Shown here: piece by piece, positions 8,913 through 12,719 of the stretch
Numbering within the stretch: the stretch's first letter is position 1
Layout of the letters: the number at the start of each line of letters is the position of its first letter
DNA from: Acidobacteria bacterium RIFCSPLOWO2_12_FULL_65_11
Lineage (GTDB): Bacteria > Acidobacteriota > Vicinamibacteria > Vicinamibacterales > CAVVIG01
NCBI GenBank assembly: GCA_001767495.1
Contig: MELA01000098.1
Location: forward strand, 409-42,725
DNA length: 42,317 nucleotides
Reading direction: 5' to 3'
Position numbers and translations under genes: made by a program
Notes under the pieces: generated by a model
What the model saw: the letters and a program-made list of their open reading frames with translations, nothing else
What the model was told of the DNA's origin: nothing
Databases searched by the model: none

Positions 8913-10271
8913 CTACATGAGCATGAGTGGGTCGAAGTTGTAGTTGGCCGGATCGAGCGGCGCGACAACCGAGGCGGACGGGCGATCGGGACTCGTCTCC
9001 CACAGATTCAGTTCGTAGGGGATGTCGAGGCGCTGGCCGTTGCCGCTGATGAGGACGCGCACCTGCGGCCGGTACGGATCCGGGGCGTACACCTTCCGGA
9101 CCACCGCCACTTCTCCTGTGGTGAGCCGGACGAGGTTGCCCGCCGGATAGATGCCGATGAGCTGCACGAAGCGGCGGACCAGAGGCTGATCGAACTGCAG
9201 GCCGTCGTTGCGCTTGAGGACGGCCAGAATGCGATCGGTCGGCATGGAATCCTGATACGCCCGCACCGACCGCATGGCGTCGTAGACGTCCGCGATGCTG
9301 CAGAGCATCGTGCCGACGTTGAGCACCGGGCGTCGGACCCGTTCCGGATAGCCCGAGCCGTCGGTGCGCAGGTGATGCTCGAAGGCGACGACCGGCGCGA
9401 GCGCCGGCATGTCCGGCGTCTTGCGCAGAATCTCGGCGCCGTCGACCACGTGGCGCTTCATGATGGCGAACTCGGCCTCGGTCAGCTTGTCGGGCTTGGT
9501 GAGAATCTCGGCCGGCGTCCGCACTTTGCCGATGTCGTGCATGAGTCCCGCAAGACCGAATTCGCGCAAAAGCGACCCGTCGATGCCGAGGCCCCGTGCC
9601 TGGCCCATCGTGAGAATCGACACGTTCACCATGTGCGTGAACGTGTAGTTGTCGTAGTTCTTGAGCGTGGTCAGCGCGAGCAGTGCCGTCCGATTCTGCG
9701 CGACGGCCTGCGCGAGACCGTCGATCATGGTTCGCGCCACCGTCGCATCGGGCTTGTGCTCGGTGGTCGCGCTGTCCCAGATGCTCTGGGCGGCCGCGAC
9801 GGCGTCGTTGTACAGCCGCTTGATCTCGGCCATGTCGCTGACGTTGCCCTCGATGCGCGGTCCGACGGTCACGCGGCCGATGCGGATGTGGGCGAGCGTG
9901 GGAAACGCCGCCGTCGAGCCGCCCTCTTTCTGCTCGACGGCCGCCACCGCGTCGATAAACGTCGTCAGCTCGCTCCGGGTCATGCCTCGGTCGATCGTGA
10001 TGCGCTCAACGCCCCCCTGCTGCAGCCGCCTGACGACCGTGCCGTAGGCGTCGGCTTTGCCCACCGGCAGGTCGTCGACGATAACCTCGTCTCCGATGAG
10101 CCCGATGACGAGCGACGGCTGAAGCGTGTGGAGGAGCTGAATGGCGCCCGAGAGCGCTTCGACGTTGCGGGCGATGATCGGATGGCTCTTCGAGTAGAGC
10201 TGCATGGCGCGGAGCGTGGCGGTCAGCGCGCGGAGCAGTTCGTCGGCCAGTTGAAGCTTGGGTGCGGTCAT
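8913..10271 (-). CDS. HD-GYP-domain protein (probable cyclic di-GMP phosphodiesterase)
   Basis: About 452 residues. Residues ~1-150 form an N-terminal module that resembles the start of the neighbouring HEAT protein (LYSKSHP; IGDEVIVDDLP; ITIDRGMTRSELTTFI). The HD-GYP domain follows (~210-380) with HMVNVSILTMGQARGLG, the metal-binding HDIGK at ~244 and the signature HHLRTDGSGYP. The last ~70 residues are a beta-rich tail. HD-GYP proteins hydrolyse cyclic di-GMP in the cytoplasm. Here the usual HHE has Leu in place of Glu, which is seen in some active members but leaves activity unproven. ATG 10271 overlaps the stop of the HEAT gene (ATGA), so the two are coupled. The longer frame (to 10466) lies inside that gene and is rejected. 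Confidence 0.88.
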   Translation of the reverse strand: MTAPKLQLADELLRALTATLRAMQLYSKSHPIIARNVEALSGAIQLLHTLQPSLVIGLIGDEVIVDDLPVGKADAYGTVVRRLQQGGVERITIDRGMTRSELTTFIDAVAAVEQKEGGSTAAFPTLAHIRIGRVTVGPRIEGNVSDMAEIKRLYNDAVAAAQSIWDSATTEHKPDATVARTMIDGLAQAVAQNRTALLALTTLKNYDNYTFTHMVNVSILTMGQARGLGIDGSLLREFGLAGLMHDIGKVRTPAEILTKPDKLTEAEFAIMKRHVVDGAEILRKTPDMPALAPVVAFEHHLRTDGSGYPERVRRPVLNVGTMLCSIADVYDAMRSVRAYQDSMPTDRILAVLKRNDGLQFDQPLVRRFVQLIGIYPAGNLVRLTTGEVAVVRKVYAPDPYRPQVRVLISGNGQRLDIPYELNLWETSPDRPSASVVAPLDPANYNFDPLMLM

Positions 10272-12565
10272 GCGGCTCCTTTGCCGGCGCGGTGCCTGCT
10301 GCTGCTTTTCGCCGCGGTCAGATGGTCGCGGGCCGCCGATCGCACGCCGCGCGATCCGGCGGTGGCGGCTTCCTCGAGGACCTCGATCGCCTCGGTCGTG
10401 CCGATACGAGAGAGCGCCGCCGCCGCCGCATCCCGAAGCGCCCGGGTTCTCGCCGGCGCCCACCACTCGCCTTTGTTGTAGAGCACGTCTTTGAGCAGCG
10501 CGATGCCCTTCGGATCGCGCAGGGTCCCGAGGGCTTCGACGGTGCGCAGGTAGATCGGCCCCAGAGCACCGCGATGGCTGATGTGCCGCAGCAGATACGA
10601 CAATAGCGGCGTGACCTGCTCGTCGCGCAGCGCGCCGAGCGCCTGCATCAACGTCTCGCGCGACCGCGTCGTGCCCTTGACGAGGGCCTGTCCCAGTTCG
10701 CGATAGGCGCGTTCGGTGCCGATCTTCGCAATGGCCCGCACCGCATCACCCTGGACCTGCGCCTCGTTGTCGTTGAGGAGCTCGGTGAGGTCGGGAAGGG
10801 CGTCGGTGCCGCCGAATTCGCGCAGCAGATACACGGCGGTCCGGCGCACGGCGGCGTTGGGCGATCCCTTCAGCCGCTCGACCTGCCGCCGCCCGATGGC
10901 GCCAAACGCGATGAGGATCTTCGTCAGCCGCTCGCGCGCCCGGCCGCGCTCCTCGCTCGCCAGCGCCTCGGCCAGCGGGCGAACGAGCACCTCGCCGAGC
11001 GACACACACATGCTCTTGACGCGATCGAACTGCGCCTCGTCTATCGTCGCCAGATGCGACGTGATGTGATGGAGCATGGGCCCGGCCACGAGCGTGTCGA
11101 TGGCGATCATGGCGTGCTGCCGCCGTTCTTTGCCGCCGCCGGGTGCCGCCTGGCGCACGATGACGTTCAGCAGTTCCGCCGCGGCGTCGAAATCGCCGAC
11201 GAGCAGCAGATCGTCGACGAGCGAGACCACCGGGGTCATCAACTCGCCCCAGAGCTCGTCGTCTTCCTCAATGCGCAGCAGATCGAGCAGCAGCGTCATG
11301 TCGAGCGCCCGCACAGCGTTCGTGGCAACCGTGCCAATCCAGGCGCTGAGCCGCTCGGGCGGATCGTCGCTGACCGCCTCGACCTGGATGGCCTGCGTCC
11401 GCGCGCCCGACAGCTCGCGGCTGTACGCGGCGGGTACGTACGAGGCGTCGGAATACGACGTCAGCAGCTTCTCCGCGACGTGGTTCCAGACCTGCTCGAA
11501 CCCTTCGGTCTGGCCGAGCGGTGAGTCCGCCACTTCGTCTTTCGCCAGCTTGAGCAGCCGCTGGCGCTGGTCGTCTTCGCGCACCAGCGACTGGAACGCT
11601 TGCGCCAGCCGGTCGGTCGCCGATCCGTCGGCCATCACGTTGGTCGAGACGAACTTGGCGATCGTGCCGTCGGACATCCGGCCGACGACGGCCTGCATCA
11701 GCGTGGGCCCTTCGGCGCTTGCGGCGTCCTCTGTCAGCAGCCCCAACAGCATCTCGGGCGTCAGACTGCCCACGGCCGCGGCGGCGTTACGCAGCAGTGC
11801 GTCGACCTTCTCGGGCTGACTCTTCGTCACCGTATCGACGATGCCCCGGAGCATGCGGATGAGGGCGGCGGCCCTCGGGCCGACGCCGCCGCCCTTGGCG
11901 GCCGCGTGCTGGTCGAGCGTCGCCACGAGATGGGCGAGGCGGTCCGGTCCTTCGCTGCCAAGCAGTTCCTTGAGCTCGTCGTCGGAAAGCTCGAAGGTCT
12001 CGCCCTGGAGGCACCGGGCGATCAGCTCCTCCCACTTGAGGTCGCTCTCGCCGGCGCGTTCTTTCAAGACCTCGCTGTAGTCGATCTCGCGCAGCTCGAT
12101 GTGCCGGCCTGCCATCGCGGCCCAGGCGCGTGCGATGCCGCCCTCGGCGCGGACGACGTCCGGCGCGCGCCCGAGCAGGGTGAGAAACCGGCGCCAGCCT
12201 TCCGTGTCGCCGCCGGTCTGAATCGTCAGCTCGCCGATCAGATGGTTGTGGAGGAGCGCCGCCAGCTCGGCGATGGCCGCATCGGGGCGGTCGGGCGCGC
12301 GATCCTCGACGAGCAGCCGGTCGGGCAGCACCCGGAGCGTGAGCGCCTGCGGCAGGTTGGCCGCCGAGGTGATCTGCGCGATGCGGCCGAGGGTGGCCGT
12401 GACCGCCGGGTGAGCCGGCGGATAGAGGACGACAGCGCGCGCGGCCGCTTTCATGGCGCGGGCAAACTCGGTCAGGCGCGCGGCCGCCTCGGGCGCGAGC
12501 GGAGGCGCGGGCTCGGCAGCCGGCTGGCTGGGCGACTGGGTAGTCGGAGAGGTGCCGTCGGCCAT
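10268..12565 (-). CDS. HEAT-repeat protein sharing an N-terminal module with the HD-GYP protein
   Basis: 765 residues. It has a Pro/Ala-rich disordered start, then a ~150-residue module (~28-175; VVLYPPAHPAVTATL, RVLPDRLLVEDRAP, LTIQTGGDTEGWRRFLTLL). This is matched feature by feature in the partner HD-GYP protein. A long all-helical middle follows. Clear HEAT/PBS-lyase-type repeats come near the C-terminus (~575-745; for example VRRTAVYLLREFGGTDALP, VQGDAVRAIAKIGTERA, LRDAAAAALSRIGTTEAI). HEAT arrays are protein-binding scaffolds; no enzyme motif is visible. The ATGA overlap with the HD-GYP gene suggests that the two products act together, perhaps with the shared module reading the same cue or pairing. 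The basic tail (SSSRHRAGKGAA) is short. Function is not known. Confidence 0.8.
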   Translation of the reverse strand: MADGTSPTTQSPSQPAAEPAPPLAPEAAARLTEFARAMKAAARAVVLYPPAHPAVTATLGRIAQITSAANLPQALTLRVLPDRLLVEDRAPDRPDAAIAELAALLHNHLIGELTIQTGGDTEGWRRFLTLLGRAPDVVRAEGGIARAWAAMAGRHIELREIDYSEVLKERAGESDLKWEELIARCLQGETFELSDDELKELLGSEGPDRLAHLVATLDQHAAAKGGGVGPRAAALIRMLRGIVDTVTKSQPEKVDALLRNAAAAVGSLTPEMLLGLLTEDAASAEGPTLMQAVVGRMSDGTIAKFVSTNVMADGSATDRLAQAFQSLVREDDQRQRLLKLAKDEVADSPLGQTEGFEQVWNHVAEKLLTSYSDASYVPAAYSRELSGARTQAIQVEAVSDDPPERLSAWIGTVATNAVRALDMTLLLDLLRIEEDDELWGELMTPVVSLVDDLLLVGDFDAAAELLNVIVRQAAPGGGKERRQHAMIAIDTLVAGPMLHHITSHLATIDEAQFDRVKSMCVSLGEVLVRPLAEALASEERGRARERLTKILIAFGAIGRRQVERLKGSPNAAVRRTAVYLLREFGGTDALPDLTELLNDNEAQVQGDAVRAIAKIGTERAYRELGQALVKGTTRSRETLMQALGALRDEQVTPLLSYLLRHISHRGALGPIYLRTVEALGTLRDPKGIALLKDVLYNKGEWWAPARTRALRDAAAAALSRIGTTEAIEVLEEAATAGSRGVRSAARDHLTAAKSSSRHRAGKGAA

Positions 12566-12580
12566 CCGGATGATTATGCG

Positions 12581-12719
12581 GTGGCCGGTGGCTGGTGGCT
12601 AGTGGCTGGGGACTAGCTGGTGACTAGCTGGTGACTAGTACGTAGTGTCCGGCTTTAGCCGGACCAAGTCCGCCTGAAGGCGGACACTACGTACTTCCGA
12701 GCCGCCAGTGACCAGCCAC
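12581..12719. repeat. Repeat cluster: paired palindromes between GGTGACTAG/CTGGTGGCT arrays
   Basis: The gap between two divergent genes is almost all repeat. It has short direct repeats (CTAGCTGGTGA, twice, 12614-12637). Then come GTCCGGCTTTAGCCGGAC (12647-12664) and GTCCGCCTGAAGGCGGAC (12668-12685), enclosed by TACGTAGT and ACTACGTA. Last is AGTGACCAGCCACCAGTCACC, an inverted relative of the first part, at 12708 onward. No operator was recognised. Confidence 0.8.

Follow-up and report, generated by a model that had tools for sequence, protein, structure and literature searches.

In the window analysed here, a stretch of 42,317 nucleotides from Acidobacteria bacterium RIFCSPLOWO2_12_FULL_65_11, the gene of a HEAT-repeat protein overlaps that of an HD-GYP protein. 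The original prediction held that both proteins begin with the same undescribed module, which raises the question whether they form a two-protein signalling unit. HD-GYP enzymes are common but their inputs are often unknown. A linked partner carrying a homologous domain, conserved in two phyla, offers an input or output partner that is open to direct testing.

Gene pair and overlap

The features of the locus are compiled in Table 1. The range 10268–12565, originally given for both proteins, covers the HEAT gene only, and the HD-GYP gene is located at 8913–10271. The claimed ATGA overlap is readily seen in the letters of the junction (GCATGACC), where the HEAT stop codon TGA (10270–10268) and the HD-GYP start codon ATG (10271–10269, minus strand) share these four letters and AAAGGAG sits just upstream of the start codon. 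From this overlap in the sequence we infer that the two genes are translationally coupled. The source genome, a 3.55-Mb draft of 98 % completeness from the order Vicinamibacterales (Acidobacteriota), contains 11 HD_5 matches, and its only module copies are these two. At window positions 12637–12695 we furthermore observed a long palindrome (CGTAGTGTCCGGCTTTAGCCGGAC...GTCCGCCTGAAGGCGGACACTACG) with a fold z-score of −7.6, a dispersed REP-like element whose core pattern occurs in 123 copies in the genome versus 0 for the reversed control.

Table 1. Features of the HEAT/HD-GYP locus (positions in the window).
Feature	Position	Strand	Details and basis
HEAT-repeat protein gene (P0001)	10268..12565	-	765 aa; HEAT_2 E 2.7e-18, HEAT_PBS E 8.7e-16 (Pfam)
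HD-GYP protein gene (P0002)	8913..10271	-	452 aa; HD_5 E 8.1e-19 (Pfam)
N-terminal module of HEAT protein	12068..12502	-	residues ~22-166; hhalign, profile test, genome search
N-terminal module of HD-GYP protein	9846..10271	-	residues 1-142; hhalign, profile test, genome search
ATGA stop/start overlap	10268..10271	-	sequence read; -4 overlap in 55/110 homologous pairs (start nearest -4 picked)
HD-GYP catalytic domain	9147..9659	-	residues ~205-375; Pfam; closest solved structures Bd1817, PmGH
Pfam-recognised HEAT repeats	10325..10879	-	residues ~563-747; Pfam

Shared N-terminal module

Both N-termini display the motifs in the order originally described, namely LYxxxHP (LYPPAHP at residues 47–53 of the HEAT protein, LYSKSHP at 25–31 of the HD-GYP protein), a strand resembling I/VLPDRLLVEDxP (VLPDRLLVEDRAP and LIGDEVIVDDLP), an L/ITIxxGxxxxE-like stretch (LTIQTGGDTEGWRRFL and ITIDRGMTRSELTTFI) and a last strand (HIELREID and HIRIGRVTV). 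Profile-profile comparison of the HEAT protein (32 sequences) with the HD-GYP protein (38 sequences) by hhalign gave a single match, confined to the N-terminal region, which aligns HEAT residues 33–169 with HD-GYP residues 11–142 over 133 columns (E 1.5e-9, probability 96.3). With the HEAT protein as query, phmmer matched the HD-GYP protein of a relative at E 9e-7, likewise in the N-terminal region only, and BLASTP of the two window proteins against each other gave a weak match (E 0.003). Built solely from HEAT N-termini, a profile recognised 88 of 121 HD-GYP proteins (E<1e-3), and its counterpart from HD-GYP N-termini recognised 85 of 108 HEAT proteins, counts that express recognition and not prevalence, as the loci were fetched by similarity. 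No reversed decoy was among the matches of either class-specific profile, and the one match among 6,395 other frames came from a locus itself holding the HEAT gene. Over 270 module copies, conservation peaks within LYxxxHP, with Y at 92 %, H at 81 % and P at 79 %. The hhalign, phmmer and cross-profile results bear out a module of ~140 residues common to both proteins, and judged from their sequences the two N-termini are homologous. That the motif resemblance stems from chance or composition, as the weak BLASTP match might suggest, has next to no probability, and is already refuted at the sequence level by the hhalign E value, the lack of reversed decoys and the co-linearity over the whole module.

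No family recognises the N-termini in Pfam or NCBIfam searches and nothing convincing matched among PDB sequences, so the module may still be called undescribed, and it represents an uncatalogued domain family. The best PDB match, a designed repeat protein, was dismissed, as its best stretch alone reached E 0.32. One weak NCBIfam match to SglT (NF058544, E 0.066) was dropped because it matches elsewhere and under the cut-off; a search for SglT in 16 genomes gave nothing over the cut-off, and the places listed differ from the module loci.

AF2 models of the two window proteins (mean pLDDT 86) show both modules as helix-helix-strand-strand-helix-strand-helix-...-strand, an agreement in the order of elements alone, with an extra short strand in the HD-GYP protein and two extra helices in the HEAT protein. 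The conserved Y and HP residues are located in the loop that links helix 1 to helix 2 in the models, where they could simply be structural. Foldseek and VIA searches with the whole HD-GYP model returned matches over the HD-GYP part only, which filled the list and are not evidence of a new module fold.

Distribution and linkage

The shared module and the overlapping pair are far more widespread than the window. The module profile detects copies in 101 of 297 Acidobacteriota genomes. In a second phylum, probably Myxococcota and reached via a MAG deposited as Myxococcales (G315, locus L083), it matches 56 of 141 genomes. It is worth mentioning that the three matches of this MAG itself share a single 5-kb contig, which carries a Vicinamibacterales-like array and is probably Acidobacteriota contamination.

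In 42 of 60 Acidobacteriota loci from this search, a module-HEAT gene (or one for a module protein without recognised repeat) lies beside a module-HD-GYP gene on one strand; this count includes one locus printed in the opposite order only because its stop-to-stop frame begins earlier and one in which the second module gene is truncated ahead of the HD domain. The remaining loci include 2 cut by contig ends and 13 with the HEAT gene alone. The 40 loci of the second phylum comprise 27 pairs, 1 fusion, 3 with a second module gene without recognised HD domain and 9 single or cut cases. Divergent HD-GYP proteins that seemed single at first are mostly preceded by a module-bearing gene as well. With 110 pairs in total (83 from Acidobacteriota and 27 from the second phylum), all as module-HEAT followed by module-HD-GYP on the same strand, the expected conservation of the pair in other genomes was found in most module-bearing loci examined, which were the better matches and not a random choice. 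Module-HEAT genes without HD-GYP partner also occur, in 13 of 60 Acidobacteriota loci and in about 8 of 40 loci of the second phylum, so that the HEAT protein must be able to work in another way too.

An exact 4-nt start/stop overlap is present at 55 of the 110 junctions, 42 of them with ATG. By our own rough estimate, chance would yield this overlap in about 20 % of cases when any start codon counts and in 7 % when only ATG does, whereby our script picked the start nearest −4 and thus favours this offset. Vicinamibacterales often carry a tandem HEAT-A/HDGYP-A/HEAT-B/HDGYP-B array, of which only pair B remains in the window genome. Separate HEAT and HD-GYP trees divide the loci into the identical partition of 18 A and 33 B, with support of 0.999 and 0.997 for A and of 0.87 and 0.55 for B, respectively, showing that both genes of the pair were duplicated together and did not exchange partners. 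The nearest conserved neighbours of the pair in Vicinamibacterales, a nucleoside transporter and a nucleoside phosphorylase, do not point clearly to a function.

Several further arrangements were observed. In locus L243 (3490–7035), the partner in HEAT position is joined to a degenerate HD-GYP partner within a single 1182-aa frame, a fusion that might stem from a sequencing error. The loci L164 (582–4859) and L169 (2933–7219) encode GGDEF-AAA_16-module-module-HEAT fusions of 1426–1429 aa, and in L255 (4113–6869) a Ser/Thr protein kinase domain precedes the module of the protein in HEAT position. These fusions to GGDEF or protein kinase domains tie the module to signalling. A PAS-GGDEF gene lies near the pair in L153 and L162, and PAS-HisKA-HATPase-receiver hybrid kinases are encoded near solo module-HEAT genes in L134, L138, L141, L156, L157, L159, L165, L179 and L180.

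HD-GYP and HEAT domains

In the HD-GYP protein, Pfam recognises the HD domain only (about residues 210–362). The protein combines the HD-GYP family fold and the Pfam HD_5/HD match with all seven metal ligands tested (H213, H245, D246, H274, H299, H300 and D328), GYP at 307–309 (G307, Y308, P309) and K249, and its HHLRTDGSGYP differs from the consensus HHExxDGxGYP by the exchange of E for L (L301). Its model matches the structure of Bd1817 with a Z of 24.7 over 224 residues and that of PmGH with a Z of 18.3. The carboxylate ligand E185 of the trinuclear PmGH site is Y209 here, and the position of K317 is taken by Q340. A Y or F at the E185 site has been assigned to a likely binuclear HD-GYP subfamily (PMC4159591), and with Y209 the window protein falls into this 'Y/F' group. 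Hydrolysis of a cyclic dinucleotide, most likely c-di-GMP, is a reasonable assumption.

All metal ligands are complete in 86 of 92 Acidobacteriota members versus only 11 of 28 in the second phylum, where many HD-GYP partners lack metal ligands or GYP. Hydrolysis is thus not the universal role of these proteins, and the association outlasts catalysis. The HDGYP-A copies (L040–L060) mostly read DLSGYP versus DG(S/T)GYP in the B copies, a consistent difference in the active-site loop.

In the HEAT protein, Pfam recognises HEAT repeats only, at residues 563–746, with HEAT_2 scoring 66.4 bits versus a gathering cut-off of 27.7. Its 36.9 bits against an NCBIfam equivalog cut-off of 300 place it outside the phycobilin lyase/NblB proteins. 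Neither PADLOC nor a search of plasmids for the HEAT protein gave a match.

Proposed mechanism and alternatives

Taken together, we consider it probable that the locus encodes a co-translated two-protein signalling unit of a HEAT partner and a cyclic-dinucleotide phosphodiesterase, with the module most likely mediating their contact. The signalling unit originally proposed gains support from the gene order kept across two phyla, the duplication of the unit, the congruent trees, the one partner fusion and the GGDEF and kinase fusions or neighbours. That the module could sense or dimerise, as was also suggested originally, is a reasonable proposal. The HEAT protein would serve as scaffold or input partner of a binuclear-metal 'Y/F'-type phosphodiesterase, most likely for c-di-GMP; module-module contact would join the two in a heterodimer or mixed oligomer, and a ligand bound by the HEAT solenoid would alter, or read out, the state of the phosphodiesterase. 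Here, physical contact, the module as its interface, the direction of control and the substrate are what we infer. The dimer of PmGH is built by its N-terminal GAF domain together with the helix that follows (PMC4159591), a precedent for a dimerising module at the N-terminus. Speaking against the proposed unit are the module-HEAT genes without HD-GYP partner, the incomplete metal ligands of 17 of the 28 second-phylum members and, in the window protein, the replacement of K317 and of the E of HHE. Evenly balanced, in our view, is the broader proposal of an unrecognised signalling system, in which this adaptor module defines widespread two-component-like pairs of HEAT and HD-GYP (or pseudo-phosphodiesterase) proteins that associate via their homologous N-termini, and serves GGDEF and protein-kinase proteins as well.

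Sensory domains of HD-GYP proteins typically occupy the N-terminus, and this position, the strongly conserved Y and HP and the solo module-HEAT genes would also suit a small-ligand or signal sensor that two co-expressed proteins use separately, each reacting to one common signal without contact between them. We regard this as unlikely, since the absence of partner swapping and the L243 fusion fit contact better and the conserved residues of the helix 1–2 loop could simply be structural. Quite improbable is that each module homodimerises its own protein and that stoichiometry or chromosomal reasons preserve the gene pair; homodimers formed via the N-terminal part do occur among HD-GYP enzymes, as in PmGH (PMC4159591), but module order and homology are kept across two phyla and the partners are fused in L243. 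A doubtful but somewhat more plausible alternative is compatible with module contact and differs in the direction of control: the HD-GYP member would mainly be a cyclic-dinucleotide receptor or structural partner, with the HEAT protein as output. The many second-phylum members without metal ligands or GYP and the DLSGYP of the A-type members speak for such a role, whereas the window protein and most of its Acidobacteriota relatives keep all seven ligands and GYP. The naturally degenerate HD-GYP versions separate catalysis from association.

Comparison with known systems

Papers joining HD-GYP, HEAT repeat and Acidobacteria or Myxococcus yielded none of relevance, which is weak evidence of novelty as most subscription journals were outside the scope of the search. 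HD-GYP and HEAT proteins belong to known kinds; neither the module they share nor their conserved pairing turned up in the families and papers searched. The HEAT protein resembles HEAT and PBS-lyase HEAT-like repeat proteins in that its HEAT_2 and HEAT_PBS repeats exceed the Pfam cut-offs, but differs by the N-terminal module and a long helical middle part, and it scores far under the equivalog cut-offs of NblB and CpcE. The HD-GYP protein shares fold, metal ligands and GYP with Bd1817 (Bdellovibrio), PA4781 and PmGH, our comparison for the binuclear 'Y/F' group. It differs from PmGH by the undescribed module in place of the N-terminal GAF domain and by Y209, HHL and Q340 for E185, HHE and K317, and from the binuclear HD-GYP enzymes by the adjoining gene for a HEAT partner. 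SiaC-SiaD (PMC8457831) and, as far as cited in PMC4877007, RpfG complexes likewise involve a partner protein with an effect on a c-di-GMP enzyme or on the network of such an enzyme; compared with these systems as described there, the partner here is a HEAT protein, and both proteins carry a homologous N-terminal module.
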